Source: Phytophthora colocasiae
Taxonomy: Eukaryota > Oomycota > Peronosporomycetes > Peronosporales > Peronosporaceae
Length of the DNA stretch: 64,000 bases
Direction: 5' to 3'
Assembly (NCBI GenBank): GCA_018806915.1
Contig: JAGKQI010000091.1
Span: forward strand, 2,232,001-2,296,000
The number at the start of each line of letters is the position of its first letter. Within the stretch, counting starts at the first letter, position 1. Below, one piece after another: positions 13,901-58,135 of the stretch. Made by a program: the position numbers and the translations under genes. Below the pieces are notes generated by a model. It was not told the DNA's origin. It saw nothing but the letters and a program-made list of their open reading frames with translations, and made no database searches.

Positions 13901-16900
13901 TGCAGTCTGAGCCATTATCCCTTTAGTAGTTCGACATCTCTGCAGTGCATCTTGACATTCCGCAGTCCAACTCAACTGAATTCCAAGTAAAGCGAACTGC
14001 GCACAGGTTTTACTCACAAATTCACGTAAAGAACCGGACGAACATTCAGCAGCTGCTTGTCGACATAAAGTCTTGAGAGTCCGTCGCATTTCCTTCTCCA
14101 ACATCCCTAGCCAGTCCTCAATATTACCGTCAGGAAGAACTGGTTGTACTAAGGAGATTGTCTCTTCGTCATTACCCACCAAAGATTTAATCTCAATGAT
14201 TTTTCGCTTGGAATTTGGATTCGTTGCAGCAGGAGCTTTAGGGTCTGCAGTCATCGGACGTTCATGGACTACTTGACTGATACTATCGAAGATTTTCTCG
14301 TAGTATTGCTGTACAGCAGCTGGGTCCGATCCTCGAGAGAGAATTAGCAGTAAAAGAGGGTTTGACACGAAGTAAAACCGAGGGAACTTCTTCCTTTTCT
14401 GCTCGAGGTATCCTTCCAACGACTTCTGGCACTTCTCAAGTTCTCCGAAAAGAGAAGGAAGTGTACTACGTAGTAGCTCATTAGAGCAACACGACACGAC
14501 AAACCCTACTTCCGATGCTTTACTCATAACTTTAAGCCAGTCTTTGTCGATTTTCGCGAACTTTTTCGCTTCCAGTGGCATTTGCTTGGCGATATCTCCA
14601 CCTGTGAAAACCGATTCCAGTGACATCCACAAGGTTTGTACTTTTGCCCACAATTCAAGCACATCTGCTGTATCTGAAAGTTGAGCCAGTTTCGCTTGTA
14701 CTCGGTCTTTGAAAAATACCACATGCCTCATACTTAAAATGGCTTGGAGTTGTAGCTGCCCTTCTTCCAGATCCTCGATAATCTGCCCGTAACCTTTAAG
14801 CACAGGCACGTTACGTTGTCTCCACTCGCTAAACTCAAACGCTGTACCTGCCCAACGATCAGTGAGATCTCGAAGTTTATGCTCAATTTGCAGTTGCTTC
14901 TGAGCACTTTCACAAATATATTCAACATCTTCTTTCCACGTGAGAAGTTTTGCGTCAAGAACGTCCTGAAATTTAAACGATTCACTGTCGTAAGGTAAAC
15001 GTTGACCATTGCAAGCTTTGATTAGTTCTTCCCAGTGTCGAGGCTTGATACTTTCCCTTGTTAATTCACGGACAATTGGTAACATTTCGAGAAATTCCGC
15101 GATAACTTTCCGTAAAATACCATACGCTTCCCACTCGCATAAATTCTTAGGCATTTTCTTACATCTCAAGTCATAACCAGCGAAACAATCACTCATCCGT
15201 TCGACATTAACCCCCACTTGTGACCAAGCAATACCTCGGAACTCATCCATTGTCTTATCAACGTCCATATAGAGACCATAAAGCTGATCCAGAAGTGCCA
15301 TTTCTTTTCGAGTACGCACAATTTCAGGATATTCCGTCGGTCGCATCCCGAAAAGCTCCTCTCCAGCTGAAAAGACCTCTAATTTCCGTTCTCGAATTCC
15401 TAAAAGGTCTTTGAATCGTTTCAGACGTTCCACAGCTTCTGCAGGTTCAAGACCTGAAACCATTGGACCAATTGCTTCGTATTCGTTTCTAAAAACTGCC
15501 ACATCCGCTTGGAAATCCTTGACATCTTTAATCAATTGCTTCTTAAATCCTCCCTGCACTTCGGATAAATTATCCGTCACTTCTTCCGCATAATCCACGA
15601 GTTTCTTCCACGATCCACGTAGTACACTCTTCTGGTCCATTTCCTCTTTATCCATGTACCCTCCAGGGAGAAAATGCTCCAGCATATCGTACATATCAGC
15701 GATCGGGTTAAGTTCCATTTCAATCGCAGATTCTCGCTCTCTCACTTCTTTTAATACCCCCATAACGAATCGAAGAGCGTCGAGAGATTCCACCCGTGTA
15801 CTTAGTTTGGATGTCGTCGTTCGGATGTAATCAGTTAAGTTAAACAAAGCAGTTCGAGCTTGTTGGTGGACTTTATCCGAGTATTGAACCTTCCATTGAC
15901 GACATTCATTCCGTAATTGAAGCTTCAAGTTCTTCGTGTTGAGAGATAACACCGCAATGTTGTGTACCGGTGCGATCAATGAAATCTCCGCTTCGACAGC
16001 CATAAAATGACGTAATTCCGTCTCGAAATCCTGGATTAAAGGGTTTCTCTGCATGAACTGGTTGTACCGGAACTCCATATCTTCTTTCCAGAGCCAATCG
16101 TACTTTTTAAAGGCTGAAAGATATTCGTGAACTTGGTTTTTCGTGCCGTGAAGCGCTCCAGTAAGTAAAATCGCCACTTTAATGATCTCTGTATCGCAGC
16201 CAAGACGTTCGAATAAACTTGTACGTGCAGTTTCCGGAAAAACACTCTGTTGTCCCCATTCATACAAACTTTTCGAGCAGCGTAAGACAGCGACAGCAGA
16301 TCGGTTGATCGCTTTCTGGATATCATCCAAAGACGGACTTAAGCGGACAGAAGGCACGGATAATTGGACATCCACTTCGAAGAACGGTCGTTCCAAGAAG
16401 AGGAAACCTGTACCAGCCTTAGAACATACGCGTTTCTTGATGGCATCTAATGACTGCTTCGTGCACGTAACTAAAGAACGGTAGAAGAGATTTCGATAGA
16501 AACTCCGGAATGTTTCCATCGCTTCAACATCACACGTCACCGTTCCTGAAGTGGAAGCACCATTTACTGTTGAAGGAGTCCCATCAAGATGATACTCACA
16601 TATCAATCGTAGTACATCTTCCACTGCATTCTCAATCTCCACGTTCTTGGCTGCTAATTGTCTGGTAACATTAGCCACGTGTTTCTCCTGCATTCGGACG
16701 AAATCATCCAGAGCAAAAGATTGATCGGTTGGTAAATTAACCAACGAAGCTTTCGAAACAATCACTAAGTTCTTCTCAATCCGGTTCTCGATAGCATCTA
16801 AAACACTGGAAATGAGTTCTTCTAGGCGTTGTAAAGCTGCGTGAGCTACTGCAGTATACGCATCAATATTCATACTTGTCCACGTAAGAGTAACCAGTCC

Positions 16901-19297: not shown

Positions 19298-19497
19298 GTC
19301 GGACTCGTCAGGACTGCGTCTCTTCAAGATCTAAAATGAAGATCGATCAAGAAGTTAGTGTGTGAAACAACAGTTTCCATGCACGGCCAATAGGTCTCCA
19401 CAATTGAGATGTTCCGACCCTTTTAAGAAGATAGAAGAGATCGTTTCATAAGTGTAGATTGATAGTTGTTCAAACTTTGTGTGATCTTATGATAAAT

Positions 19498-23186: not shown

Positions 23187-25567
23187 ATGCCAACTAAAAC
23201 GCGAGAGACAGCACGGACACGAGTCACGAGGAAGAAAGCGACGCGATCGCAAAGCTCGAGAAGAGGACAGTCTCGACGCCGTGATGAGGCTATTAATGAA
23301 GGTGCCGTAGGCGACCGGAACAGTAGTGACGAAGCGACGATCAGTCCTGATGAGTACGAAGACAAACGTGCTGTACCCGCAGAAGAAGAAGAAGAGTCAG
23401 CCGTCATGACAAGGAGCCAAGCACGAAAGGAGTGGGAGGAAGCAGAGCGCTTCTTGGCTACAGCTGCCGCCTCGGGAGACGGACAGACAACATTTAGCAG
23501 TGGACAAGAACTCATTAGCGCTGTACTGGGAGAACTCCCGATGCACCCGGAAGACGAGCAGTCACGAGTGGCTGGACTGGATGCCGCTCCAGGCGCTGAA
23601 ACCGCTAACGATGTGGCCGATGCACACGATGACGATGAGCCAGTACGAGGAAATGCGCCACATGCAGCCGAGGATGACCCTGATGACGATGTTCCCGTAC
23701 ATCCACCCTCAGAAATGGAAACCATAGCGACAGCACTTCAAGAGCTCCGTGAAGAAGTTCGGCAGCTACGGTTGAGGCGTGAATCTGGACCTAGGCAGTC
23801 TGCAGAGAACGAAGATCGTGATCGGCAGGTGCATCGACCCCTTCAGCAGAATGTACGGCGAGATTATGACGAAGATGCACGACGAGTGAACCGACGTAGG
23901 TCACAAGGGCGGGAACGAAGAGAGAGATCGCAAGGCCGGCGAGAGGTGCCTCCAAGACGACAACCGGAACGACAACGACGAGAACAACCGGGAGGTGACG
24001 GGCAACCCTCCTCCTCCAGCAGTGAAAGCGACTCCGATGATCACGGAAGACGCGACGCCGGACGAAGACAACGGCGACGAAGCAGCTCTGAAGACAGTTC
24101 CACTGACGAATCAGAAAGAGACGCACGGATTGAACAGCGCCGGGAACGTCACGAGCAACGAGAACCGCGAGGGGGAAGACGACGAGACCAACGCGGATCA
24201 CCACGACGCGAGCGACGCCGAGAGCGTCATGAAGCACGTGGGCGACGAAGAGGTAATGTCAAGGATCTGGAACTGCCAACGTTCACCCCTACGACTGGAG
24301 CGACGGTATCACTTGGACGGACCGCATCGATTTGGCGTTGCAGGGCGCTAAGGAATCAGGACGTGGAGAGTGGAGTGATCATGCGCTTTACTTTATCCTG
24401 GGGAACAAGCTCATGGGCGAAGCCGCAAGTTGGTGGGTAGACTTCAATCGCAGACTGACAGACAATCAACGCACGTGGACACATCTGAAGCAGGCTCTAT
24501 TACGGCGGTATGGACCGAAGGAGGATATCTCACTAGCGGAATATCGAGTGAACACCAGGTCAAGAGGTGCGAAGGAATCACATGCTGATTACGCAGCCGC
24601 TCTACGGAAAGCAGCAGGACGAAGCCGTGTAAGTGAACGCGTATTGATGGCACAATTCTACCGCGGCATGGACAAAACTACGCGTCAGTTGGTGAAGCAG
24701 CAGGAACCAGAAAATCTGGAAGAAGCGGTGATCAAAGCAACGGAAATCGATGACCCGATGGAAAACCTTTCGCAACTGGCACCAACTGGACAAACGACGA
24801 CGACGGCGACGACTGAAACGGCAGCCACGGATGGTATCGCGGCGAGGACGGTGACTTTGCCAGGCGTGGGTAGTGTGTATGTCCCGGTATCTGGTACCGT
24901 AGAAGGAATCAAAAATTACGCAGCTGTGGATCCAGATGGCCTCGTCCTCTATACGAATCCGAAAGGGGCGTGGAACATCATAACCGGGAAGTACGAGTTG
25001 CCGGCAGGAAGGAAGTGGAATTCGCGATACTGGGCAGAGCCTACGGTTCAGAAACGTACGAAAGCGAGGAAGGCGGACAACCGGCGCGACGAACGGAAGC
25101 AGCGAGCGCGGCGAGACGTAGAATCTTCGGACGACGAGGAACGGGACACGCAGTCTCGCAAAGCGAGCAAGCAACGGCGTACGACGGACACCAGCGAGGA
25201 GGAGTACGAGCTGAAGTCCCGGAAGAAAGCAAAACCGAAGCGTACAGTGCATTCTAGTGACGAAGAAGGAGATGCGAAGCCCCAGAAGAAGTTGAAGGCG
25301 GCAGTACGGCAAGTGTTAGCAGAAGAAGGCCAGAAACAACGAACCTCGAAGAAGTCGCCACCGAGCGAGACCAGTTGTCGGATCTGTGGGCAGAGCGGTC
25401 ATTGGGCTGCATACTGCACCGTCGGACCAAAGTGTTTTGCGTGTAGCAAGCATGGGCACATGGCGCGAGACTGTCCAGACCCCAAAGCCAAGGCCAGGAA
25501 TGACGAGTACATGGCTAAGCGGAAGGAGGCACTAAAGTCAGCGGAAAACGGGAACGGGACGTCGTAG
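23187..25567 (+). pseudogene. gag: Retrotransposon gag, interrupted by a one-base frameshift
   Basis: The first plausible ATG is at 23187 (MPTKTRETART). The N-terminal part is long, acidic and then very Arg/Ser/Glu-rich (about 23600-24240). The frame is lost at about 24290: the capsid-like part (GITWTDRIDLALQGAK..., GEAASWW, YGPKEDISLAEYRV, Retrotrans_gag type) continues in the -1 frame to the TAG at 25567. The C-terminus has two CCHC zinc knuckles (CRICGQSGHWAAYC and CFACSKHGHMARDC) preceded by a Lys/Arg/Ser-rich stretch. The break falls at CCT|ACGAC, and one missing T would explain it. It does not match a standard -1 slippery heptamer, so I read it as a mutation rather than programmed shifting. 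Confidence 0.8.
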
Positions 25568-25569
25568 GG

Positions 25570-28500
25570 GGAGTACGATGTCCGAGAAATGCCCGGGATC
25601 CCCAGCAAGTGGCAGACGTGAACAGGAAAGCAACGACGACCGCAATCACGGACACCATAAGCCTACCGAGCACCGAGTCGTGTATGGACGAGCGAACGAA
25701 GAATGACGAGGAGCATGAACGGAAGAAGTGCAAGATGAATGATGGCACGATGACAAACAATGAATTGACGGGCGACCAGACGACCCGAAAATGGTCGACA
25801 CTGAATGAGGATGACAAGACACCGGTCAAGAAAGTGACGAACGAACTACTGAAGGACGCGACAGAAGAGGATGTCGAGCGATCTGCCCGATATGTGTCGA
25901 CTACGCGCCCGACAATGGTAGCTGTGCGATACCTACGTGCCAATCGTGAAGATGAAGAACGAGAATGGAGTGCCAACACCGCCAACAGTAACGTTTGTGA
26001 GGACGGAACTGGAGGGGGCGAGCACAAAAGGAGAACTGGAGGGGGCGCGAAAGAGCGTTCTGATGGCGACGGAGTTACGAGTGACCCGAATGACGAGAAG
26101 ACTAACACGGGTGTAGTGACGGCACCAGATACGGGCGTGGCGACGGAGGTGAACTCGAGTAACAGTACTGATGAACAGAATGAACACATGAGGAGTGGCC
26201 AGTCGTTGACGAGTGGTAGTACGGAAGTCACTAGCGCAGTGAATGATCCGGCGCAAGGTCTGGACGTCGCTAGTCTCCGGAAGGCACGAAAAACCGCAAG
26301 GAAGATCGCTAAACGACGGAAAGCGAAGGCACGATTGGCTCGGCAACGACGCGATAAACAAGAAGTTGAAGCCGAACGAACAGTTGTAGCAGCGGCGCTA
26401 AACAGTAAGAGGCGTGAAGAAGCGAATGCAGCATGGGAAGCGTTCGAATTACGCAAACAACGACGGCAATTGGAAGGCGAAGACCTCACAGAAAGAAACG
26501 TGCGATCTCTGGACACTGCACGTGTAAGTTTAGTGAAACAACGACGGTCAACACAAGTACCTACCAGTGAACGGCGTGAAGATCTGGTGGAATACGTTGG
26601 AGCCGACGATGGACTGCCGACAGCTTTAATGAACGTGAATGGCGAATTTCGGCAAGTGAAGCTCGATAGTGGTGCGCGATACACCGTGGCAGGCACAGAC
26701 TGGATGAAGTACGGTGATCGAGTATCTAACGAAGCTCTCGTTGATTACGTAGAAGGCATTGGAGGATTTCTGCTGGATGTTATTGGTGTGTGGCGGTTTA
26801 CCTTCAAAACGGTGTTCGACGAAGAATTAACGACCGATGCATGCATTATTGCTGGCTGTGGAAACGAATTCCTACTGGGAGTGGATTTCATGCAAGCACG
26901 AGGGGCAACTATGGACTTTCAGCGACAAGAAGTACGATATGCCGAAGGAGAACGAACAGTGGTAATTCCGTTCAAAACTCATGATGGCGACGGAGCCGGT
27001 AGAGTTGCAACAGTAAGGATGATTAGTCGCACGGAGATCGCTGGGAATACGGTGATGCCAGTGGAGGTAGCCGTTCCTGCTGAGAATGGTGAACGAGGTG
27101 TGTTCCTACCGACGAAGCACATTGGATCGGTACTGTTAGCCGCGACGGTGACAACCGCGAGAAATGGAAGGGCGTGGATACCCGCTATCAATACGAATGC
27201 CAAGTCCGCGAAGATCCCAAACAAGAAACAGCTCGGAACGTGGATACCCGTTGACGATGATGTAGAGATCCTCACGATGAATGGGCAACTAGATACGGAA
27301 CGAGTAGAAAACTGGCTGAGCGAACTTGGAGACTGTGAGACGCCACTCCTGAATGAGAACGAAGTGGATATTGGCAGCGATGACCCGAAGTCGAAAGAGT
27401 TGGTTTTGAAGTTATTACGGGCTTACCGATCATTGATGACGAACACTAGTGAGTGCCCACCTGCAACGACGTTAGATGTTCACCATCACATTGACACAGG
27501 GACAGCTTCACCAATTATGCTCAAACGAAGACGCCAGGCACAAACGGATGACGGTATCATTGACGACAACGTAGAAAAGATGCTGAAGGCTGGCGTAATT
27601 GAAGAAGGCAATGGCGGATGGGGATTCCCAGTGGTTCTGGTACGGAAGAAGGACGGAGAAGTACGTTTTTGTGTCGATTACAGAGCTCTCAACAAGATCA
27701 CTAAGAAGGATGTTTACCCTCTTCCGCGAATTGACGAAACTTTGGAGGCATTAGGTGGTGCCTTGTTGTTCACAACGTTGGATCTTCGAGCAGGGTATTG
27801 GCAGATCCTAGTAGCACCTGAAGATCGTGACAAGACAGCTTTCACCACTAAGAGAGGGCTGTACCGGTTTGTACGAATGCCCTTCGGATTAACGAATGCA
27901 CCATCGACATTTCAACGACTAATGAATGGAGTGTTAAGGGGCCTCACTTGGTCTACTTGTTTGGTGTATCTAGACGACATCGTAGTTTTTACGCGAGGTG
28001 GCATCGAGCGACACATTGTAGAATTAGCTGCGGTGTTAGAACGGTTGGAGAGAGCGGGGCTTACACTCAAACTGAAGAAGTGCAAATTCGCGACCCAAAC
28101 AATGGAGTACTTGGGCCACGAACTCAGCAGCGACGGAGTTAGACCATTGGACCGGTTAGTTTCTGCGGTACGAGACTTCCCGACGCCTAGCGATGCTGTA
28201 GAAGCGAAGAGGTTTGCTCACTTGGCTGGTTATTATCGACGATTCGTTAGTGGATTTGGTACGATCATGGCGCCTATCACGAAGCTGTTACGGAAAAGCG
28301 TTGCCTGGGAATGGGGAGATGCACAGAAGACAGCTTTCGAACGCGTGAAGGACATATTAACTGCGAAGCCTCTGCTCATTTACTCAGACTTTCGGCTACC
28401 ATTTCGAGTAGTGACAGACGCGAGTAAGGTTGGATTGGGTGCATGTCTGATGCAGGATCAAGGTGAAGGTTGGCAACCAGTAGCGTTCGCCAGTAAAGTG

Positions 28501-28782
28501 AACAGTGAGACAGAAGGAAAGTACGGGATCACGGAGTTGGAATGTTTTGCTGTCGTGTGGGCCATTAAGCTCTTCAGGCCTTACCTGTATGGACGCAAGT
28601 TCGAGATCATCACGGATCATGCTGCGTTAAAATGGCTGATGACGAGTCCACACTTAACTGGAAAACTGCATCGATGGGCACTTACCTTGCAAGAATTTGA
28701 TTTCGAAGTGCACTATCGACCGGGCCCCACGAATGTGGTCGCCGATGCATTATCGAGGGCGCCAGTAGCAGCTACGGTATGA
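25570..28782 (+). CDS. pol: Retrotransposon pol: protease, reverse transcriptase, RNase H
   Basis: This frame has no ATG near its start and is open upstream into the end of gag, so expression as a -1 extension of Gag is likely. After a basic, low-complexity region comes the aspartic protease motif LDSGARYTVAG (near 26660). Reverse transcriptase runs from about 27500 (FCVDYRALNKIT, TTLDLRAGYWQI, VYLDDIVVFT at about 27966). RNase H follows (VVTDASKVGLGACLMQ near 28410, ITDHAALKWLM near 28615). The frame ends ...ADALSRAPVAATV, the usual end of the RT-RNase H block, at a TGA whose bases overlap an ATG (ATGA). Catalytic residues look intact. Confidence 0.9.
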   Translation, partial: GVRCPRNARDPQQVADVNRKATTTAITDTISLPSTESCMDERTKNDEEHERKKCKMNDGTMTNNELTGDQTTRKWSTLNEDDKTPVKKVTNELLKDATEEDVERSARYVSTTRPTMVAVRYLRANREDEEREWSANTANSNVCEDGTGGGEHKRRTGGGAKERSDGDGVTSDPNDEKTNTGVVTAPDTGVATEVNSSNSTDEQNEHMRSGQSLTSGSTEVTSAVNDPAQGLDVASLRKARKTARKIAKRRKAKARLARQRRDKQEVEAERTVVAAALNSKRREEANAAWEAFELRKQRRQLEGEDLTERNVRSLDTARVSLVKQRRSTQVPTSERREDLVEYVGADDGLPTALMNVNGEFRQVKLDSGARYTVAGTDWMKYGDRVSNEALVDYVEGIGGFLLDVIGVWRFTFKTVFDEELTTDACIIAGCGNEFLLGVDFMQARGATMDFQRQEVRYAEGERTVVIPFKTHDGDGAGRVATVRMISRTEIAGNTVMPVEVAVPAENGERGVFLPTKHIGSVLLAATVTTARNGRAWIPAINTNAKSAKIPNKKQLGTWIPVDDDVEILTMNGQLDTERVENWLSELGDCETPLLNENEVDIGSDDPKSKELVLKLLRAYRSLMTNTSECPPATTLDVHHHIDTGTASPIMLKRRRQAQTDDGIIDDNVEKMLKAGVIEEGNGGWGFPVVLVRKKDGEVRFCVDYRALNKITKKDVYPLPRIDETLEALGGALLFTTLDLRAGYWQILVAPEDRDKTAFTTKRGLYRFVRMPFGLTNAPSTFQRLMNGVLRGLTWSTCLVYLDDIVVFTRGGIERHIVELAAVLERLERAGLTLKLKKCKFATQTMEYLGHELSSDGVRPLDRLVSAVRDFPTPSDAVEAKRFAHLAGYYRRFVSGFGTIMAPITKLLRKSVAWEWGDAQKTAFERVKDILTAKPLLIYSDFRLPFRVVTDASKVGLGACLMQDQGEGWQPVAFASKVNSETEGKYGITELECFAVVWAIKLFRPYLYGRKFEIITDHAALKWLMTSPHLTGKLHRWALTLQEFDFEVHYRPGPTNVVADALSRAPVAATV

Positions 28783-29650
28783 GCAGCGATAGGAAGGCAA
28801 CGACGAGCGCGACGAGAGAAGCCATCACGAACGACCCAACGAACCGTCATGAACACGGGCGAGGTTACGCGGATGGAAGTTGCAACGCACGACGAACACA
28901 CGACGGGTGCTCTAGAACCGGTGACGAACGACCAGAGCAAGGAAGCGAGTACGCCGGACGAAGAAGTAAGCGCGGTAATCGAGCAATTAGTCAGCACGAT
29001 CGTGGATGCCACTGTGGAACCTCCGGGTTCAACAGAGCCAAAGCGTAACGAGGAAAGGAGACGTCGAGCAGGGCGACCAAAAGGCAAACGACCAGCGAAG
29101 TCCGCAACGAACAACGCTGAACGCCCGATGACGAGAGGTGAAAAACGTAGGAGAGAACAGGCGGCGATCAAAGAATCGTTGGTGTCGGACGAAGGGGAGC
29201 CTGACGCGAGAAAACCCGGCGACGGTAATGACGCAACTACCATAAGAACAGATGAAGTAGCCGTCACAATGATTCCAGCACCGGGACCGACGACGACTAT
29301 GGTAACTTCAGCAGTCAGACCGGCAACGAAGAGAGCATTAATGACGGGAGTGGCTGAAGTGACGGAACGTGCAACGGTGGGTTCAGCAGCGACGGACACG
29401 ACGGCACCAGCACCATTGGCAGTATCAACGGTGACGTCGAGATCAGCGACTACTACGAGAACGTCGGGAACACCATCAGCAACGACGGGAACCACTCCAG
29501 CCACGGAACCAACGGCGAATAGAGCGATAGCAGCAACGACGAGTGACAGCACCAATAGGAAACGGAAGCAACGAAAGACGGTGACTTGGGCCGACGGCAT
29601 GTCAAGTGGCGGTGATAAGTCAGGCGAAGTACGAACGGACCCAAAGACGA
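28783..29650 (+). other. Spacer between RNase H and integrase with a 278-codon open frame
   Basis: A frame at 28849-29685, in the same phase as pol, is open after the single TGA. It encodes a Thr/Ala/Arg-rich low-complexity sequence (TTMVTSAVRPATKRA..., then KRKQRKTVTWADG). No domain is recognised. In related elements this interval is a linker of Pol. Here it is cut off by a stop before it and a frame change to the integrase after it. Confidence 0.5.
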
Positions 29651-31393
29651 GTACGAAAGCGACGCGTTCCGTTGCGAGAAGGTGATGTAGCAGCCGTACG
29701 ACGCCAACGAATGAAGGAACCAACGCTACAACTAACCGATGCAGAGATCATGGATGAACAGTCGAAAAGTAAGATGGTACAGCAAATGTTACGAGCTGGA
29801 ACTTTTCACGGACGGGCTATCAGTAAGGTGTTTGGCCTGGTTGTGATAGAGGCGCCGAATCAACGAAGGATTGTACTTCCACCAGCATTATGGGCAACGG
29901 TGTTCAAGGAGTGCCACGACAGCGTATGGTCAGGACATCTCCGTGCAGCTCACACGTATGCGAGGATTGCGCAGCAGTATTGGTGGCCGAAGTTGAGAGA
30001 CGAAGTGCGACGATGGGTACTCGGATGCCAGGAATGCGGAAGCCGAAAGGCGCGCCCACGTGAAGTAGTGCCGCCATTAAGAAGTATTCGAGGAGGTGAT
30101 GTCGGTGACCGATGGGCACTTGATGTAGCAGGCCCGCTACCAGCTACTGACGGAGGAGAACGATACGTGATCGCCGCAGTGGAATATGTGACGCGTTATG
30201 CAGTTGCGATTGCAGTGAAAGACCATGCAGCAGAAAACATTGCCGAGTTTCTGATGAAGCAGGTAGTGCTTCGGTTTGGACCATTTCGAGAGATTTTAAC
30301 GGACGGTGCACCCGAGTTAGTGGGGAAAGTGATCGAAGAATTGGTGATACTGCTACAGGCACAGCAGATCAACCCGGTTCCCTACAGGCCACAAATGATA
30401 GGACTTGTAGAGAGATTTCACAGGACGTGGAAGGACTGTGTGGCAACCTACATGAGCGATGAACGACAACGAGACTGGGACACGTGGGTGGACTACGCCG
30501 TGTACGCGTATAACTCGGGACGTCACTCCACTGTGTTACTTTCGCCAAATGAACTGATGATGGGACGACGGCTACGAGCTCCCAACGAACTTCTACGCGC
30601 TACACGAGTTACGGAGGCTGGTGATCTGGTTAAACATCATCAGAAGCTCTTGGATACGTTGAAAGTTGCTCACGAATGTGCAGAACGAGCGAGAATACGA
30701 GAGCAGCAACGGCAAGCTCGTTACTACGATAGGAAAGTGCGCGTGAAACGAGAATTTTCGCCAGGTGATCGAGTTTGGATGTTCCGACCTCCGAGAGGCC
30801 CTAAAGCTTCCAAGTTCGTACATCAATGGATAGGACCTCTACGAGTAGTAGAATCGGCCGGTTACGAGAATTTCTTGGTTGAACGGGAGGATGACGGCCC
30901 AGAACACGAGCAATTTATAGCTCACGTGTCGTTTCTTGCGACGTATCGGCGACCGACGGTGCTTTTGGAAGCAGCAGCTCGAGATCTGGAGGAGCAGCTT
31001 GAGTATGAAGATGAGTGCTCACGGAAAAACGATGACGAGGCGACAGAACCGACTGCACGAGCAGCGACGGCTCTTGTTAACACAGCGATTCCGAGACGAG
31101 GTGAGAAACGAAATGCGACGGCAGTGGCAAACGAGGGCGTGGCCAACACCAACGACGAACTCTTGGTGGAAGTTTGCCGACGACGAAGAAGAAACAGAGC
31201 TGGACAATACGTGTTGGAGTACCAGTTACGGCCCGCCGGTACACGAACGCAGCAGCAACACGGAACTGGACACGGCAGTGGCCGACACGAATCAAATGAC
31301 GGTGGAGGACGATGGTATTCTGTCGCTGAGTACGAAGACTTGTTTAACCGCGGCAAGGTCGTGGAAGACCTTGGAGTGGATGGAGGCGTGTAA
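29651..31393 (+). CDS. int: Retrotransposon integrase
   Basis: Meaningful sequence starts about 29651 (LREGDVAAVRRQRM). The HHCC zinc-binding domain is ECH...GHLRAAH...GCQECG (about 29910-30045). The catalytic core has D in WALDVAGPL, D in ILTDGAPEL and E in GLVERFHRTW (DDE). A C-terminal GPF/Y-like module follows (DRVWMF...QWIGPLRVVESAGYENFLV, about 30765-30890), then a basic, variable tail. I see no chromodomain. Its stop codon TAA (31391-31393) lies inside the 3' LTR, formed by the LTR's own TGTAAT start. Confidence 0.88.
   Translation, partial: VRKRRVPLREGDVAAVRRQRMKEPTLQLTDAEIMDEQSKSKMVQQMLRAGTFHGRAISKVFGLVVIEAPNQRRIVLPPALWATVFKECHDSVWSGHLRAAHTYARIAQQYWWPKLRDEVRRWVLGCQECGSRKARPREVVPPLRSIRGGDVGDRWALDVAGPLPATDGGERYVIAAVEYVTRYAVAIAVKDHAAENIAEFLMKQVVLRFGPFREILTDGAPELVGKVIEELVILLQAQQINPVPYRPQMIGLVERFHRTWKDCVATYMSDERQRDWDTWVDYAVYAYNSGRHSTVLLSPNELMMGRRLRAPNELLRATRVTEAGDLVKHHQKLLDTLKVAHECAERARIREQQRQARYYDRKVRVKREFSPGDRVWMFRPPRGPKASKFVHQWIGPLRVVESAGYENFLVEREDDGPEHEQFIAHVSFLATYRRPTVLLEAAARDLEEQLEYEDECSRKNDDEATEPTARAATALVNTAIPRRGEKRNATAVANEGVANTNDELLVEVCRRRRRNRAGQYVLEYQLRPAGTRTQQQHGTGHGSGRHESNDGGGRWYSVAEYEDLFNRGKVVEDLGVDGGV
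31373..31388 (+). promoter_or_regulatory. Polypurine tract
   Basis: GGAGTGGATGGAGGCG directly abuts the 3' LTR, the expected position for plus-strand priming in reverse transcription. Confidence 0.55.
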
Positions 31394-32765: not shown

Positions 32766-33015
32766 AGAAGAAGGCGGGGAGTTGGCGGGACGTCATGGCA
32801 GGCTTGAGAATAGAGCGATATTTACTTGATCATTGCTGTGTCAGGGCGTAAAGAGATGGTTGGGCGTGTTCAGGCTTGAATATTTGTATTATTGGGTCAG
32901 TATTATATTATATTGACTTGGGGTAAAAGCAATAATACGCAATATAATAATAACCCTTTCGCGAACAGAGCTTATTGACCTTGACTACTATGGTATACAA
33001 AGTTAGCATGTTAAC

Positions 33016-33127
33016 ATACGAAGGGGGGCAAAATGACCACCTTCTTAAAACACGGTACTTGCCTGATCGGAGTCGTCCTGAACATATGGCAATAGGTCAA
33101 TCAAGGAGGGCAATTTGATCCCTTTCA
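33016..33127. repeat. Left subterminal palindromic repeats of PB-1
   Basis: Two copies of a palindrome-like motif: AAGGGGGGCAAAATGACCAC at about 33021 and AAGGAGGGCAATTTGATCCC at about 33103. Copies of the same motif lie near the right end. Candidate transposase-binding sites. Confidence 0.6.
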
Positions 33128-33485
33128 TAAGCCACTGTACTCTCCTCAATATTCTATGCAATAATTTCATTGGCTGACATAACAGCTGCCACAAGCAAAA
33201 TCGACAGCGAGTTTTGTCATTGGTCAAGCTGTGTTCACGTAATGCACAAAACCTGAGACAGATAGAGGCGGATCCGTGATAAATTACGGATCCCACTACA
33301 TACCTTACGCGTTCAATTTCAACGGATGTGCTGTCAGTGGCCCTGAGCGGACACGATCTACATGACGAAGTACATCCGCCTTCACTCCGCAACGCGAGCC
33401 AACCCCATCGGCCCAGTAGAAACGTACCCATATTGTAGCCTGCTTACAGCGGCACAATGAACACTCAGTTGCATGAATATAAATA

Positions 33486-33573
33486 AGTGTGGCACGTAAC
33501 TTGTTTTCAGTATTGAAATTGAATTTTCTAGTGTGGCACGTAACTTGTTTTCAGTATTGAAATTGAATTTTCT
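33486..33573 (+). repeat. Exact 44-bp tandem duplication
   Basis: The unit starting AGTGTGGCACGTAAC occurs at 33486-33529 and again at 33530-33573, with no differences seen. It lies about 100 bp upstream of the transposase ATG, so it may affect its promoter or leader. Confidence 0.9.
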
Positions 33574-33670
33574 CAAATTTGATCTTGTACCAACTGATAC
33601 AAATCGACGGACGCAATGCGTCTCAGTTACCACTTACAAACCGAAGACGCGTGGAAGGGAGAGGCTTGCA

Positions 33671-36472
33671 ATGACTACACCCTCACAAGCGATCGAGCCT
33701 ATGCAGGAGGTAGCGACACCCATCAGCACCCCTAGCGATGAATCACGTACGCTCGAAGCTGTGACCCGTGGAAGGACAGCACAGGAGGGGGCCGTAGCAC
33801 CAGACATCCAGCATTCAGATGCCGCCCCACCCAAGCGGAAGCGAGGCCGCCCGAGGGGGTCAAAGAACAAGCCAAAGTCTGCGTCAAAGCGAAGCCGGCC
33901 GCCAGAGGAAGTGCCAGTGGTGAACAAACAGGCCACTAAACCCAGACGAAGTCTTGACCTCATCTTGAACGACGTCGCTGAAGCCTCACAACGACCCAGC
34001 ACCAGTACAGACGCCGTACTGCCCACTACCACAACCAACACCAACGAGTCGCCGTTATTACGTGCCGCAGCATTGTCACCTGCTAATGCTACGGGACTGC
34101 CCACCAGGTTGTCTTCTACGGCCACTGTTACCGAGCCAAGTACACCGACGCCTAATGGTACAGCTACTCGACGTACGAAGAAAAAAAACCTGCCGTCAGT
34201 GTTGTCTATGTATGTAGACACACTGGTAGCATTCGCTCCAGCGAAGGAGGGCTTTATTACTCAAAAGAAGAAGTATGTTGGAGTCGGGAGTGCGTATCTG
34301 GTTGGAAGAGTCTGCCGAGTTTTGAAGCAGTCGCTGTTCCAGATTAACTGGTTGGACTCGCAGTTCCAAAACCACGTTGAGACTTTGAATCTGAGCGCTG
34401 TGCAGCGGGGCAACGCTAACTATCGGGCTCTACACGGACGTTCTACTGGGGCTGGATGGGGCGCTTGTGTGCAGTTGATGACGGTGAGGAAGTCAATGTC
34501 GATGATGACACCGACATTCTAGAGGAGTACATGGAGCCTTTCGACCCTCCGATGGAACTTCCGACGTCATTAGCAGAGGTAGAGGCTATCAAAAGCATCC
34601 GATTTGAGCCCGAAAACCAGTGCGAGGCTCCTCCTGACCTGTACGAACATGCCGATGGATCAACTAAAACACGACTGCGACCAGAATTCAAGCATATCTT
34701 CCAGCACTCGGCCTCGTCGAGTTTTTTCGCGTACATTCCGGTTTCATTCTGGCAGCAAGTTGTTGGAGAGATGAATACCTATGCACGCCTGAACAATATC
34801 GCAGTCGGGAAACCGTTTTCACGTGATGAACTCATGATATTTTTGGGGATACTGCTGTTCCTATCTCTTGTCGACAAAGGTGAATACGCTAACTACTGGG
34901 GCACACAAGTGGAGAATTTGATATTGGGTGGGGCTTCAGTTGGGCTGGATAACGTGATGCCTCTGCGCCGATTCAAAGAGCTGAGGAAAGCTTTCTGCTT
35001 TCAATGTATTGAGACCAACGCGGGAGCACAGGACCAGGCCGCCAAGATCCGCCCACTGCTGAATATATTGAAGACAACTGGGGCAAAATACGTGGAGGTC
35101 GGTCGTAACGTTGCGCTAGACGAAGCAAGTGTTGCTTGCCGGTCAAAGTACGGCAAGGCCCTCATTGTATATAATCCTATGAAACCGACGGGAAATACCA
35201 CTTCCGGATTTACATGCTCTGTTGCGCTACGAGTTGGATATCGCTGAACTTTCGGTTGCATTGCGTGAGCGAAATCACCGAACGTTTGGATGGCGTTGTT
35301 TCACCTGAAGCAGCGCAGGCGTTGAGCGATGAAGTCGCAGAGCTGTCCTCGATTCGGAAGTGCGTTCTGAAGTTGTTCGGCCGCTGTATGCTACTCGTCG
35401 GATTGTCAACTCCGACAACTACTACACTTCAGTGCAGCTGCTGATGGCACTACGTCTCAAGGGTCTCTACGCTCGTGGCACTGTGCGGAAGACCAGCTCC
35501 CATTTTCCTCGCCATGTACTTTTGGAGAAGAAAGACTGCTCCCGTGGAACCTCCCGGCAGGCTGTTTCGGCTGATAGCTCGCTGGTTGCAGCGTCGTGGT
35601 ACGATAGCGCTATTGTAACCGTGATCTCAAATGCCGACCCGTCAACGCTTACTTCAGTAGCCCGACAAGTGCGCTCTGAAAAGCGAAGTTTTTCGGCCCC
35701 GACATGCATCAAGGAGTACAACGCTAGTATGCAATGCGTAGATCGCCTTGATCAAATTCGCGCTCGGTTTTCGCTGTCAGATGGGCACTCGTTCAAGAAA
35801 TGGCACAAGAAACTAGCATTAGCTCTTATCGACGTTGCTCGAGCTAATGCTTATTTGACCCGGAGGTTGGCGGTGGATTTTAGTAAGGTGCGAGACCCAC
35901 ACCGAGATTTCGTTGTTGAACTCTGTTCCGAGTTGTTGTCGGGGAAGTGGAAGGAGGCCCCCAGTGAACGGTTGATGTTTTACGCGGACAGTGCGGCAAG
36001 CATGGATCCTGAACATTCATCTCCGTCGAGCACAGTCTGGGTTGCACGATCAACAAATGAAACTCCATGCTCTGAGAGTCCTCAGAAAAGATGCTCGGCT
36101 GTTTCCTCGAAGCAATTCTATACTGACATGAACCGCAAGCGTAGGAAATGCGTCGTGTGCCGTTGGGAAGATCGCTACGCTACTGAAGTGACGGACGTGT
36201 GTGTGCTTCATAACGTTTGCCTTTGCCAGAATGTCCATGTCTCCAAGGAGCCGTTTGCTTGTCCAGAGACCACTTGGACGTGTTGGGAGAAGTTTCACCG
36301 CTTCTATCTCCCCAAGAAGCTCTTTTCACAAAGAGGAAAGGCACGGACAAGCTCAGAATTGTATAAACTAAAGCGGAGTCTGCTATCAACTGCGGTTCAA
36401 GAGAATGTGGACACTGGCGAAGAACTTAGAGCTGATGGAGGTCGTACAGTTGTAAGGTCAATAGTTCTGTGA
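33671..36472 (+). pseudogene. piggyBac transposase with AT-hook N-terminus (frameshifted)
   Basis: The ATG at 33671 opens an N-terminal part with an AT-hook-like block (KRKRGRPRGSKNKPKS). The frame moves near 34450, again near 35200 and again near 35380, so at least three breaks (or undetected introns) separate the pieces. Recognisable piggyBac (DDE_Tnp_1_7) parts, in order: FWQQVVGEMNTYA, FLGILLFLSLVDKGEYANYW, NVALDEASVAC (first Asp), VNSDNYYTSVQL (second Asp), LYARGTVRK, MQCVDRLDQIRARFS (third Asp region) and WHKKLALALIDVARANAYL. A Cys-rich C-terminus with CVVCRWEDR and CLCQNVHV follows. It is not closely similar to the transposase at 55032-57887, so two piggyBac lineages are present. Confidence 0.8.
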
Positions 36473-36604
36473 GTTGTGGGTATTTATCTTGATCTAAGTA
36501 TGTAAAAGCAGCACAAGAAAAATTACGGTGGGTTAAATGTGGAAATACACTTGAATATAGTATAGAAACAAAAAATGTATATTGCTGTGATTTCACTACG
36601 CACT

Positions 36605-38005
36605 TCAGAGCGACTTGTATAAAAAGATCTGCTGGAGGTCGGCCTTCCAGCTACAGGGGAGATCGAGCACCTTCTCCAACTTGAACGCACGACAGAAATC
36701 GTTGTGGCAGCTGTCGCGGTGTCTTGGACAGAAGTTTAGAGCGCTCACCAATACGCGCAGCAGGAACATCCCAGAAAGCTCGTTCTTCACGTACTCAATA
36801 GCTCGCTGTTCGAAGAGAACATTGTTCCAATATACAACTGTAGCGTCGGCGTAGGGTAGTGTGGTCGAAATGGGCAGGCCAACAATGTCCTGACATATAA
36901 GTTGGGATCTTTCGATGAGCCGTGTCGATCTCACGCTCCTGGACATCATCTCCAACCCCACCGTGCATAACTCGCGACGAATTTCAATGCCAATTGCCCT
37001 ATGCACGTTTGTTGTCAAGGCAACATGTGCGATCACATTCCCAACACCAGCACCGATGTCGAGAAAGATGTCAGACGCCTTGATCTCGCCGATCTCACGG
37101 AGCAGAGTAGAAATTCCACTTGGCAGTAATTCTCCAGCGTTGCGATGCGGCATTTTTATAGTCCCTTGAACAATAACTTCGCGAGGGACATCGGCAAAAA
37201 TTGCTGTTACATCTCGTTCTCCACTTGGCGGGGACATTGGTGGTGATATTGCTTCTTCTTGAACACCGGGAAAACTTAGTGAGCTGCTACCACCACAAAG
37301 GGATCTGATCACGTCCTCATCCCGGGCGGTTTGCGACCCCAACGAACCTCCTGCTGTTGCCTGAATTCTTGGGATGCTATGACCACATGTCTGTTCTGGC
37401 GCTGGTGCTGTTTGAGTACCGAGAGATCCTTGTAACGCTGAAGGGGAACATGTTTGGGTGGTCGTAGGCGCTAGAGATGCTTGAGATGCTGGCAGTAGTA
37501 GAGGCGCAGGTGTCCCAGGCGGCCGAGATTCTGAAGGTACATGAAATGTTGGAGGCGCTGCAGAAGTCACGTGCTGAGGTGTGGAGGCAACACGATGGTG
37601 GCTTGTGTCCGGATGCTGCACTAGAGGCGGTCGTGGCGCAGCGCTCGTGCCAGGTCGCTGTTGCCGCACCTGACCACCATCACTCGAGCGTTGCTGTTGC
37701 GTTATCCGTCCTCCAGATTCGCGCTGTTGTCGCGGAGCGGCTTGCCGCAACTGACGTATCACTGTGAGTGGCCGACCCCGCGGCCGATTCACCGGCGTAA
37801 AGAAGCTTGGCGGGAACTGCTGGATGTCCGCCCCCCATGTCTTCTTCAGAGTCCGAACGCGCTCCCGTAGCGCTCTCGCACCGTGGCCTGTGCGCTTCAT
37901 ATGCTGAGCGATGTCCGCCCATGATATTCGCTTCCTCGCGCGCACGTAGGATGACGCTAGCTGTACGACCTCCTTGTCGTCCTCAAAAGTGAACGAAGTG
38001 GCCAT
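36605..38005 (-). CDS. SANT/Myb plus DOT1-like histone-lysine methyltransferase carried by PB-1
   Basis: 466 aa from the ATG at 38005 (MATSFTFEDDKEVVQLAS). A longer frame has an ATG 56 codons upstream, but that extension is hydrophobic and unlike the rest. Residues 1-58 form a SANT/Myb-like helix bundle (WADIAQHMKRTGHGARALRERVRTLKKTWG). Residues 60-260 are Pro/Ser/Gln-rich. The C-terminal half is a DOT1-type SAM methyltransferase: GELLPSG loop (about 291), motif I DIFLDIGAGVGN (312-323), acidic GIEIRRE loop (about 339), QDIVGLP, the DOT1 signature YWNNVLFE (NN at 394-395), and a closing PCSWKA...LYK. The key residues are present and there is no frame break, in contrast to the ruined transposase beside it. 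DOT1 methylates histone H3 Lys79; here a role in chromatin at transposon copies or targets is inferred. Confidence 0.85.
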   Translation of the reverse strand: MATSFTFEDDKEVVQLASSYVRARKRISWADIAQHMKRTGHGARALRERVRTLKKTWGADIQQFPPSFFTPVNRPRGRPLTVIRQLRQAAPRQQRESGGRITQQQRSSDGGQVRQQRPGTSAAPRPPLVQHPDTSHHRVASTPQHVTSAAPPTFHVPSESRPPGTPAPLLLPASQASLAPTTTQTCSPSALQGSLGTQTAPAPEQTCGHSIPRIQATAGGSLGSQTARDEDVIRSLCGGSSSLSFPGVQEEAISPPMSPPSGERDVTAIFADVPREVIVQGTIKMPHRNAGELLPSGISTLLREIGEIKASDIFLDIGAGVGNVIAHVALTTNVHRAIGIEIRRELCTVGLEMMSRSVRSTRLIERSQLICQDIVGLPISTTLPYADATVVYWNNVLFEQRAIEYVKNELSGMFLLRVLVSALNFCPRHRDSCHNDFCRAFKLEKVLDLPCSWKADLQQIFLYKSL

Positions 38006-38316
38006 GTTGTCGACAAGCAGGCACCACAGACTGAATCCTTGTAGGGAAAGTTGGCAACTGACTTCAGTTTTGTATGAAAAACTAATGTGGAAGTAATGGT
38101 GTGGAGACAGGGTCCTTACCAAAAGCACCTCACTACGCTGGCGCATCACCAAAATTACGTACTTAGTACGCATATTGCTGACGCAAACACCATAGTTTTC
38201 GTACCTAATCGCATATCTTACGTGATGTTTGCCACACCACGTAAAATATTAACCTGCGTTATTTGACCGGATTGGTTGTAATTGGAGAAGGTGATGTGCT
38301 CGTTGAACTTCTGCGA

Positions 38317-38398
38317 AAGGGGTCAAAATGACCCCCTTCATGGCAGTTTTGATGGGTGCAGTCGGAGGAGATGTCAACGGGGTCAAAATGCACCTTAT
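38317..38398. repeat. Right subterminal palindromic repeats of PB-1
   Basis: GAAAGGGGTCAAAATGACCC at about 38317 and ACGGGGTCAAAATGCACC at about 38378 match the motif at the left end. They lie some 300-400 bp upstream of the methyltransferase ATG, so they could also be part of its promoter. Confidence 0.6.
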
Positions 38399-38459
38399 GG
38401 CCTCTAAAGGGATAATAGTGCCGCAATTACGATATTGATATTATTTTTTCGGAGCCCTG

Positions 38460-41460: not shown

Positions 41461-43610
41461 CTAATTCAATCCGGAATAGCCCCATGTACGAGGTGGCAAG
41501 TACGCACTGGTGAAGCTTTCATGTGTACCTTCTTGCAGAAGCGCCTGAAATGATTGAACCGGTGGAGTATTGGAATTGGAACTGTTGTCTCTCTCGAACC
41601 ACGATAATTCGCGACGTGTGGTATTGGCGCCGTGCCCAGCCTTGTGTTGACAATGCGAACTGCCCCTGCTTTTATGGTTGCGCCGGTTTGAAGGCTCCAA
41701 AACGCGACAGGTTGAATGCTCATCGTTTGCTAGTATCCACCAGTGCTTGTCGAAGTGTGTTGGCAGAATCTTTAAATCTCCGTTGGACTCGTAAATGTTT
41801 ACTAGCTCGTGGATACATGGTCTACCGTACGTGTGGCGAAAAACTCCGGTACATAGTGATTTTTCGGCTCCAGAAATTATTAGATTGTGCGCCATCTTCC
41901 AGAGCTTGTCCGTCTCAATTAGCGCATAGGTACTGATCAAGCGAACCACAGCAGAATATTGGTCGTATCTAAGTCGGTGTGGAATAATAGTAGCATCTTT
42001 GGCTGACTGGTAGCTGATAGCATTTGCAGAGGATATCCACCACGGAAGTAGCTTCAGAAACACAGTGAGAAGATCTCCTTTTGAACTTTCCAACCATCTT
42101 TTAATCTTCGCATGCGTGCCTTCCACCGTAGACGTGTCATGGCATCCAAAGTGCGCGTACTTGTCCGTCCAGCACTTCACGATCTTCGTTTTGTATCTCC
42201 ACCAGGTACGTTCCAAATAGAGCGCCAACGTATTGCTTAAAGCTCGCAAGGCAACGCAATGTGCGTCAAAATCTGCTTCCGTCTTTGATTCTAGTGTTTC
42301 GTAATATTCAGCCATGAAAACATTGGTCTGCACAGTGTTTGTTTTCGTCTCTCCATTTGGCCCAGGTTGATCGAGTCGTACAGTTCCTAGTTCACCTTGA
42401 ACACGCGCCAATACGTTGCGGTTAATGTGCCAGCGACAAAGAATTTTGGGGACGTCTGGGAAAACCATATCACTGGCGTTCATACAGGCAAGATCCCTGT
42501 CCGTAGCGAACAGTCGGGGTTCAGGGATTCCAACCTCCTTTAGAAGTGTCTTCAATGATTCGAATGCCCATGTATAGTTCGGCTCAGCCTCCCCGGGTAG
42601 CCAACATTGAGCTAGCGGAAGCACCTTATTCAGTCCAGTAAGGATGACCATGTTTAATAAGGGCCAGTTGTGCTTATTAGTCTTGTATGTGCAATCCAAC
42701 ACAACGACACCCATGTAGTGTGTCGAGATAGCTCCAATGTTTGCGGGTGCGCCCACAACAGGTACATTAACCGAGGGTTGGAGTCCGACTCAATCTCATA
42801 TTTGTAGCGAAATCCATGGTCACTCAACTGTCGAAATAAAACCTCAATCGCAGTGTCCGTTTCCAGCATCTCGCGCCGCCACACATCCTTAGCGTTTGCA
42901 ATGTCCTTAGGTATAGCAAGTGATTTCGTGTTCGCAAGTAATAGAGTTGAATAAATTCGTGACACAGGAATTCCAGCTTCTGTTTGGAGAGTTATCAACT
43001 CGTTCGCACTTGAAATCGCATGACCACAATTTTGTTGAACGCTACGTCGCCTATGTCCAGTGTGTACTCGAACATCCAAAGAAGGCGGGTGGTTGTGGGT
43101 TCGACTTCCATCTCGTGTGTACACAATTTTCCATGCCCCCGCCGTGTTGTTGCGATCTATAGCCACAATTTTAATGCGCATGGGGCAACCCATTCGTTTT
43201 GACCCTCGCAATGTTCTGACACGATCCTCCTCACGAATACGGCGAGTATTCTTGGGTCTTCCACTACGATCACAGGCAAATAAAATTGTCTGAATTTCGT
43301 TATTGTTGTTGCGTTCGATCTTTTGCCTGGATACGTCATAGCGACGAGATTGGGTCCACCTGTGTATTGCGTCAATAGCTGCATCTACAGAAGGATGAAC
43401 ACCTTCTGGAGGTGGTTCGATGGTATAAAGCTGCGATACCTCTGCGGTGTAGTCATCCGGATAATTGAGGGCTTCAGCGTGATTCTGCATGGTGTTCCTT
43501 GCTCTTAGTGTTGTACAGGTATTGCTCGCGTCAGGTTGGAAATTGTTCTCTGTTCTAGTTGATGTTATCTCTAATGTTAAAGTAATAATAGATTCGAAGA
43601 CGATCACCAT
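41461..43610 (-). pseudogene. MULE transposase with FAR1-like DNA-binding domain (one frameshift)
   Basis: The ATG at 43610 starts the N-terminal part, which has a FAR1/WRKY-GCM1-like region (KRMGCPMRIKIVA...SRTHNHPPS). The reading frame changes at about 42715. The second frame holds the MULE catalytic core: GVVVLDCTYKTNK (first Asp), LFATDRDLA (second Asp), ILCRWHINRNVLA and STVEGTHAKIKRW (Glu). It ends with a SWIM-like C/H segment (GVFRHTYGRPCIHEL). Apart from the single frame break the protein is nearly complete, about 710 residues in total. The intact TIRs and TSD indicate a fairly young copy. Confidence 0.85.
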
Positions 43611-57700: not shown

Positions 57701-58135
57701 CTACAGCATGCTCACCAACCAGTACATTCCCATCCTTTGGACAGGTATACGTCCACTCAGTCTGGATCCCGGACGGCCGTTTCGACGTCCACCCAGCAGC
57801 TCTGAGCTGTCGCCATAGGTGCCCGAAGTCGACGTCGTGCCTGGGGGCGGTGGGGGTGGGTGGTTTCTCTCGGCGACTGGACCTCATGTGCGTTGGGCTG
57901 CAAAATCAGGAATGAGTGGTCTGGACCACAATCTGTATCCACCACCCATCATCTGACCTGGTTATGTGAACTTGTCGCAGAGACCTCTAGCAACTTATGC
58001 GTTGCAGTACACTTGATTAAAGTATTGGAATTTCGTTTCTGAGCCATTTTCTAATATAAATCGAGATATGTCGTATTATACGACATACGAAAATAGTTAC
58101 GTCGTATTATACGACGTCCGGAAGGAAGGTGTTAA
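54706..58135 (-). mobile_element. piggyBac transposon (PB-2) with TTAA target sites
   Basis: 3.4-kb element. Both ends read TTAACACCTTCCTTCCG inward (54706 and, inverted, 58135), which includes the canonical TTAA target duplication. The right subterminal region has two GTCGTATTATACGAC palindromes (about 58069 and 58100); related TGTCGTA motifs recur at the left (about 54752, 54853, 54895). It encodes a single transposase on the minus strand. Family end sequences differ from those of PB-1. Confidence 0.92.
55032..57887 (-). CDS. piggyBac transposase (DDE_Tnp_1_7)
   Basis: 951 codons from the ATG at 57887. N-terminus: a short tryptophan-containing module (FGHLWRQLRAAGWTSKRPSG...YTCPKDG) and a long acidic stretch (about 80-290). 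Catalytic core: D484 in FSFDEGVLP, D599 in VVDRFYSS and D714 in GGVDRHDQL, with KPHRYGSKLFMLCDAKD and VYYLCTG between. The C-terminus is Cys-rich (CKVCALL, CERCSIDNAKCWLCNKIRR), as in the piggyBac zinc domain. Between VLPQ and FEVYVGK lies an 83-84-nt stretch (56230-56312) with intron-like ends (GTATTT...CTAACAG/TACTAG) that other piggyBac proteins lack. Splicing at the best GT/AG removes 83 nt and breaks frame, while reading through keeps it. The copy may therefore be slightly damaged. Confidence 0.85.
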   Translation of the reverse strand: MRSSRREKPPTPTAPRHDVDFGHLWRQLRAAGWTSKRPSGIQTEWTYTCPKDGNVLVGEHAVVEYAFRSGLLVEDEECSSEDGLDDVVGDENVGEEAEGGGTDDVTIRPSQIDTSVQLSQNTVNELFGPESDASQPDLSQDAVARAFDLSQRDLHPDEEQRDAAASLHLLSEASGLESEEEDEHAVTPLAAPTRRIRIPARPNADVNVLQDGESSSEYEEFSSGDESDGAGIVDDDWDSRVGEIDEEGDDLSDSDAEEMDQAFLASLHVDDTTLNKAALQVRENTLRAMEWSEPSAEFETDTPSYPGLGDEEARPVGELLDAWRSPLLTLFYFVPKSLWVTITTETNRYYLQQLDKRAEKMAARQSGRQRETVVQIARRLRATQAYGAHEILHVVGLLVARMLCPQKRRFAAHWSMVEDGAIPAGIFGRYMSRDRCNSILRDLHFVDNSVDHGRDKIWKLRPVVDKIQERFLSGWSLPAIFSFDEGVLPATSRRNPTRMFMSDKPHRYGSKLFMLCDAKDCVLPQVFFLAFFLCRNLRDAAHTNSSRCRNCTRFEVYVGKREGVDNPIDFKTGAAAVLRNLTAVFTPESRHNWHAVVVDRFYSSVLLAVELLKKNVYVVGTVQTNRLGFNKALQSKRKTRPASVPRGSFLFSRSVAVPSLISCLWWDRKPVYYLCTGSAMTASTIQRKIKRVGALEVGCPRSVNDYQNWMGGVDRHDQLRLQSYSLQMSTRFTKYYKGLFLGFLDLALVNAFLSHKEAAKIKGTVAMQRSEWFAVLQNQLLQLKAEDFAGVQATPPASSQKRRRTPVRLTHTLQQVDDWVTVSGVQKRRQRSCKVCALLRTEKKKSFATTYFCERCSIDNAKCWLCNKIRRDFKGVPKTCFEIWHEDFGAGQDIPASLGKRVVLRRPGQSAGKRKKTKRELQLRREEDVDGGDGDNEGSGGEASSGRLRIS

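Follow-up and report, generated by a model that had tools for sequence, protein, structure and literature searches.

A two-gene piggyBac-type transposon of Phytophthora colocasiae encoding a DOT1-type methyltransferase

HarbingerS and MuDR, DNA transposons of Phytophthora, encode a SET-domain histone methyltransferase as an accessory gene (Kojima and Jurka 2014, as cited in passages of PMC12730594). The element described here, likewise a DNA transposon with a gene of this kind, resides in a stretch of 64,000 nucleotides of the P. colocasiae genome (contig JAGKQI010000091.1, positions 2,232,001 to 2,296,000 of the forward strand; hereafter the window), and pairs a piggyBac-type transposase gene with a gene for a DOT1-type methyltransferase. 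HarbingerS and MuDR belong to other transposase superfamilies: the window element features the domains PF13843 and PF08123 instead. DOT1 is a histone methyltransferase without a SET domain, and the SET and DOT1 methyltransferase folds are unrelated.

Fungal DNA transposons encode a TET/JBP dioxygenase: according to passages of PMC12730594, this enzyme of epigenetic marks is found in several transposon lineages, has been transferred between lineages, and has mostly intact frames. It differs from DOT1 in acting on DNA bases, in fungi, and the word piggyBac is absent from the main text of that article. VANDAL elements of Arabidopsis encode VANC, an anti-silencing accessory protein acting through non-coding repeats (passages of PMC10398659). 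VANDALs are MuDR-type elements, unlike the piggyBac-type element of the window. VANC is not known to be a histone-methylating enzyme. In the P. megakarya genome expanded gene families are associated with piggyBac; the words methyltransferase and histone are absent from the main text of the report (PMC7341134).

Compared to piggyBac and piggyBat, the lineage in the window has a longer transposase N-terminus and a second gene. piggyBac and piggyBat are single-gene elements, with TTAA as target and CCC ends. Members of the piggyBac superfamily have inverted ends beginning with CCC plus sub-terminal repeats, and their excision is footprint-free. By sequence, the transposases of piggyBac (PDB 6x67) and piggyBat (PDB 9c0f) are of the same type as that of the window element. 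No description of a piggyBac element with DOT1 was found by titles and passages, a search outside which the 2014 Repbase Reports on oomycete transposons fall; the combination is not described in passages of PMC3212892, PMC13317346, PMC12937675, PMC13076208, PMC12477816, PMC7341134, PMC12730594 and PMC9224773. The first-pass annotation of the window, made from the letters alone, had known no description of the system, and had mentioned transposons of other lineages that captured chromatin enzymes. Within the scope of these sources no description is found for the pairing of piggyBac and DOT1, but the SET enzymes of Phytophthora Harbinger and MuDR elements (passages of PMC12730594) are a nearer precedent, and histone methyltransferases in Phytophthora transposons are already known. 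It is nearly certain that the lineage is a piggyBac transposon featuring the second gene as a lasting functional part, a two-gene element under selection.

The element in the window and its copies

The whole two-gene element measures 5458 bp (32954..38411, + strand). It begins with CCCTTT at 32954 and ends with AAAGGG at 38411, the terminal inverted repeat being perfect over 6 bp only. On direct reading ATAA is found at both flanks, as left (32950..32953) and right (38412..38415) target duplication; the first-pass annotation had placed limits, ends and duplication at exactly these positions. The transposase gene (+) and the DOT1 open reading frame (-) lie tail to tail. The former (33671..36472, predicted start) has an interrupted frame, in pieces at 33671-34522, 34456-35247 and 35360-36472, and is broken as first annotated, the last two pieces each matching PF13843 (DDE_Tnp_1_7; E 8.4e-20 and 9.3e-23). 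The accessory gene (36605..38005), its start placed from relatives, encodes a protein of 466 amino acids (aa). Palindromic repeats mark the sub-terminal regions at the left (CGAAGGGGGGCAAAATGACCACCTTC, 33019..33044, +) and the right (CGAAAGGGGTCAAAATGACCCCCTTC, 38314..38339, +), and a third copy (AACGGGGTCAAAATG, 38376..38390, +) is found about 20 bp inside the right end. Their core GGGBCAAAATG occurs 3 times in the 64-kb window, every time within the element. Most of the diverged copies read have a sequence related to AACGGGGTCAAAATG at their right end.

In the P. colocasiae genome (92.5 Mb, 105 contigs) nine further loci with near-identical DOT1 sequence (L031-L039) were read with their flanks. 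Six of them (L031-L034, L036, L038) are full copies, 98-99.8% identical to the window element over most or all of 5.4 kb. These reside at six different sites, feature TTAA before CCCTTT and after AAAGGG, and have the same gene order; L036 shows an internal rearrangement. In L035, L037 and L039 the right end is flanked by TTAA, and the left end lies beyond the stretch read. Because six other full copies are found at different sites with TTAA, the window element is not a chance assembly, and because TTAA is found on both sides at six sites, the unit is a genuine piggyBac moving as one two-gene piece. With its ATAA target the window copy is atypical; the six other full copies have TTAA.

Each end was also searched alone in the genome. 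The left 500 bp are found at 20 places (21 rows, two of which are one interrupted copy), ten at 97-100% and ten at 75-76% identity; the right 300 bp at 21 places (22 rows). The family of the window element amounts to about ten near-identical copies of a 5.46-kb two-gene unit in 92.5 Mb. When each left end is joined to the closest same-strand right end, a DOT1 match falls inside all 20 spans, one pairing (C58) being doubtful. Listed transposase matches fall inside 18 of them, and in a nineteenth (C46:1250566) the transposase is found by reading. Sixteen spans measure 5.4-7.8 kb, one 9.9 kb, two 32 and 45 kb, and one 52 kb. The 32-kb and 45-kb spans have the transposase at one end and DOT1 at the opposite end, as expected of copies split by later insertions. 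The 52-kb span at C58 includes two DOT1 matches, one inverted relative to its right end, and probably is not one element. Starting from the right ends, DOT1 is found in 20 of 21, one of these rearranged; the exception, C28:179479, has no DOT1 match. Many copies with both genes inside the same ends, which the first-pass annotation had named as support, are thus present, both as TTAA-bounded full copies and as left-end spans. The outcomes it had named as adverse did not occur: the DOT1 gene lies inside the ends of other copies, and is untied to one host locus.

The two proteins and their relatives

The transposase was analyzed in L034, where it has a frame of 956 codons and matches PF13843 with E 2.4e-48. 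Compared by sequence to solved structures, it matches piggyBat (E 7.8e-15) and piggyBac (1e-4). Its LDE, DNYY and GVDRxDQ blocks are alignable with piggyBat, and we take these blocks to be the site of the catalytic aspartates of the superfamily. DDE_Tnp_1_7, aspartate blocks, TTAA in six full copies, and CCCTTT/AAAGGG ends with sub-terminal repeats together mark the element as a piggyBac.

The 466-aa protein is made of an N-terminal SANT/Myb-like region (about residues 1-75), a variable linker (76-266) and a DOT1 domain (267-466). PF08123 is matched with E 3.1e-12 (46.9 bits, cut-off 23) and the GELLP, DIGAGVGN and NNVLF motifs are all there, so that the intact DOT1-type gene of the first-pass annotation is borne out. 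The motifs of the S-adenosylmethionine (SAM) site and of the substrate loop are kept in most relatives, altered in L044, L045 and L015, and broken in L046. Solved DOT1 structures match the protein weakly by sequence (best 8fjm, E 5.5e-5; also yeast 1u2z and human 1nw3). Dot1/DOT1L share with it the methyltransferase domain and the SAM motifs; they are cellular enzymes, whereas the element protein is multicopy, transposon-borne and equipped with the N-terminal SANT/Myb-like domain. Judged from domain and motifs, the protein probably has histone methyltransferase activity. Two loci encode QDFKTDLRF, a peptide that matches histone H3 in the region of K79, and a control pattern found no match.

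The N-terminal domain accompanies DOT1 in 34 of the 36 rows examined. In some relatives Myb matches are found below the Pfam cut-off, and relative P0027 has PF13837 at 1.5e-5. The domain is missing from two rows. One is L050; in its sister loci L060 and L061 the domain forms a separate frame. The other is a host-like DOT1 gene at C28, where transposase is absent from the 2.5 kb read and none is listed within 10 kb. A 329-aa family made of N-terminal domain and DOT1 includes L058 and L059, together with eight more loci that score similarly. L058 and L059 are 98.7% identical over 3 kb.

Relatives in other species were sought with both proteins, scoring the best 8000 candidates by shared words. 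The DOT1 protein has at least 33 relatives, 29 of them named as Phytophthora (ten species); where given, their names are hypothetical protein, histone-lysine N-methyltransferase or histone methylation protein. The transposase has at least 91. Among 32 DOT1 and 90 transposase relatives compared, P. palmivora, P. fragariaefolia and P. lilii have both on contigs of the same size (10703, 27343 and 12587, respectively), each such pair being taken as one contig. The remaining 29 DOT1 relatives compared have no same-size piggyBac partner among the matches listed. Chromodomains (PF00385) are found in the same protein in 20 of the 91 listed transposase relatives (e.g. P0045), one from P. rubi. A viral origin was considered and rejected: viral contigs were scanned once with the protein alignment, and 35 stretches matched a pattern, none encoding a relative.

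Association, shared history and selection

The search with the L034 transposase gave at least 59 matches (51 of 1105 candidates scored), merged to at least 49 loci. At 42 of the 49 listed loci a DOT1 locus is found within 6 kb (within 3 kb at 38; tail to tail at 32), compared to about 1.9% of random points, and chance neighbourhood is rejected. Among the seven exceptions, C9:1216266 and C5:599923 are halves of split copies, and a C11 locus has DOT1 at 7.2 kb. DOT1 loci total 136, as obtained by merging 135 PF08123 matches (all 150 candidates scored) with the rows of the DOT1 search; at least 60 have a listed piggyBac within 6 kb, the piggyBac profile matches being a lower bound (116 of 1055 candidates scored). 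L060 and L061 are counted as unpaired, yet contain transposase fragments on reading. Among the piggyBac loci of all kinds, at least 124 after merging, 59 have DOT1 within 6 kb, and some lineages have none among the listed matches. One of these is a second piggyBac-type transposase of the window (55032-57905, -), a 957-codon open frame that shares no more than 47% identity with any other row of the tree; among the DOT1 matches listed, the closest to it belongs to the two-gene element of the window, about 17 kb off. Several families (L060, L061, L040-L042) have tandem repeats in the stretch separating transposase and DOT1, and copies align in many registers.

The 47 rows examined include 35 with enough transposase domain and 36 with enough DOT1 domain for trees (L024 is the L056 locus). 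Both trees are quick ones, with support by the Shimodaira-Hasegawa-like approximate likelihood ratio test only; several of their deep forks stay open, and branches of the DOT1 tree are long. DOT1 presence was scored on the stretch read for each row. In one large clade of the transposase tree 24 of 27 rows have DOT1, as has L055 of a distant clade, and well-supported branches imply at least 3 changes of DOT1 presence. The clade rows without it are L068, which has a listed DOT1 fragment 3.8 kb away, L069 and L070, where none was found. Groups in the DOT1 tree correspond to groups in the transposase tree. Pairwise identities of the two proteins are correlated: over ten families the Mantel r is 0.77, and including L055 lowers it to 0.58, each with p 1e-4. 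The association is an old one.

Two families do not fit. The transposase of L055 is merely 26-29% identical to those of the other ten families; in L052 the transposase is nearest one group, the DOT1 protein nearest another. Both are read as probable transfers of the DOT1 gene between piggyBac lineages, and nested insertions may be an alternative. The distant lineage of L055 apparently made a separate DOT1 acquisition: its transposase is tail to tail with DOT1, about 0.8 kb apart, at three loci (L055, C57:758600-762600; C8:116926-119639; C21:1522474-1525080), of which L055 was read and the other two are known from the listing.

Selection differs by time scale. In the recent family nine of ten copies were compared to the column majority. 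DOT1 shows 12 synonymous and 30 nonsynonymous changes, a ratio of nonsynonymous to synonymous rates (dN/dS) of 0.84; the transposase 49 and 121, dN/dS 0.78, the rearranged copy L036 supplying 28 and 83 of these. Of the nine copies read, five have an open and four a broken DOT1 (the match in L034 extends to residue 456 of 466); three (L032, L033, L034) keep an uninterrupted DDE domain, and in six it is interrupted. Recent copies decay near-neutrally after insertion, DOT1 no less than the transposase. The first-pass annotation had taken an intact methyltransferase beside a decayed transposase as a hint of separate selection, which must be rejected for the recent family. Between two related families, unsaturated at silent sites, dN/dS of the DOT1 domain is 0.255 (bootstrap 0.16-0.41), 0.19 (0.11-0.34) and 0.24 (0.14-0.42) in three pairs which span one and the same split and are not independent. 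Across this split the transposase has 0.37 and 0.44, its DDE part 0.32. Between the family of the window and these two families the DOT1 domain has 0.10-0.13, with silent sites near saturation. By these values the DOT1 domain is under purifying selection between families; the ratio below 1 that the first-pass annotation had named as support is found there, but not clearly among recent copies. Constraint along the surviving lineage with decay in dead copies is what is usually seen for a gene on which spread depends.

Other parts of the window were annotated as well. Pieces of a Ty3/Gypsy-type retrotransposon (24257-31393, +) include gag with a zinc knuckle, reverse transcriptase with RNase H, and integrase. 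A Mutator-like element (MULE) transposase domain is found at 41461-42789 (-), and a 4777-codon open frame (4997-19330, -) features dynein heavy chain domains over nearly its whole length.

What the DOT1 gene may do for the element

As transposase and DOT1 have long stayed together, their lasting co-occurrence suggests that the elements alter the chromatin that would control them. The N-terminal domain would guide the protein to element chromatin, possibly via the sub-terminal palindromic repeats or with the transposase, and the guided protein would methylate histone H3 at K79 there. Chromatin so marked would stay open to transcription and transposition, and copies encoding such an anti-silencing protein would spread. 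Anti-silencing as the benefit of DOT1 to the element is put forward tentatively, at somewhat short of even chances. It is favoured on three grounds: among copies, those escaping host control are selected for; in yeast Dot1 methylation holds silencing proteins off DNA (passages of PMC9224773); and a similar action is reported or argued for other factors encoded by transposons (VANC, passages of PMC10398659; TET/JBP, passages of PMC12730594).

Several observations weigh against this proposal. Pfam finds no Myb match in the window protein at E<=1, which weakens the SANT/Myb identity given in the first-pass annotation; the N-terminal domain itself stands, as it recurs with DOT1. Constraint outside the enzyme is weak: in one pair across the family split, the linker has dN/dS 0.66 and the N-terminal domain 0.50 (0.24-1.13). 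For the DOT1 domain, pairs of recent copies of the same family, with few changes, range over 0.39-1.80. The substrate of the enzyme could be other than H3. In five brown algae H3K79me2 is linked to low expression, perhaps secondarily according to the authors (passages of PMC13076208). In Ectocarpus an H3K79me2 peak overlaps 30.2% of intact transposons versus 23.1% of others, and the mark has a weak negative relation to expression (passages of PMC12477816). Since brown algae are stramenopiles too, the link to repression argues against open chromatin in the oomycete lineage. No study of H3K79 in Phytophthora was found by title, and two papers with both words concern other matters as far as their passages go.

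The same algal data would fit an element that restrains itself, its DOT1 writing a repressive H3K79 mark on own or related copies, so as to keep copy number and damage to the host low, or else to silence competing families; that the family of the window has merely about ten copies in 92.5 Mb agrees with this. Yet selection within the genome favours copies that escape restraint, the domain recurs across many families, and oomycetes are not brown algae; self-restraint is an unlikely but serious rival. Quite unlikely too is that the protein is a partner of the transposase, steering insertion towards a chromatin type or preparing it: a DNA-binding-like domain adjoins the enzyme, and the chromodomains in transposase relatives are a chromatin link in another form, but no further Pfam domain (E<=0.1) is found in eight transposases scanned from the P. 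colocasiae genome.

A gene captured and carried without benefit could account for the near-neutral changes in the recent family and for the broken DOT1 frames. The transposase too decays near-neutrally after insertion, however, and purifying selection between families, a DOT1 match in all 20 left-end spans and correlated histories are unexpected of such a passenger, which is deemed very improbable. It is hardly credible that DOT1 belongs to a host gene family beside which, or within which, piggyBac elements have inserted. Although 76 of the 136 merged DOT1 loci are without a listed piggyBac within 6 kb, and no transposase is seen in the stretches read at L058 and L059, the piggyBac listing is a lower bound, and transposase fragments are present at the supposedly unpaired L060 and L061. 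For the family of the window this reading is refuted by DOT1 residing inside TTAA-bounded units at many sites; it may still hold for the 329-aa group.

Anti-silencing remains the preferred reading, and a wider proposal may be added. Most DOT1-type genes of Phytophthora might be transposon-borne, since 59 listed piggyBac loci have DOT1 within 6 kb and C28 alone is host-like among the DOT1 loci read. Each lineage would keep its own enzyme as a chromatin label, selfish elements would write part of the host H3K79 landscape, and the gene would pass between piggyBac lineages as a cassette; as a whole this is rather doubtful. Many Phytophthora genes annotated as histone-lysine N-methyltransferase may turn out to be transposon genes. 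In stramenopiles H3K79 methylation may either open or close chromatin, the passages on yeast and brown algae cited above pointing opposite ways. Where transposons bring chromatin enzymes of their own, the struggle of selfish DNA with silencing by the host can be put to a direct test, and a lineage keeping DOT1 under selection is a natural assay of what a selfish element gains from the mark.

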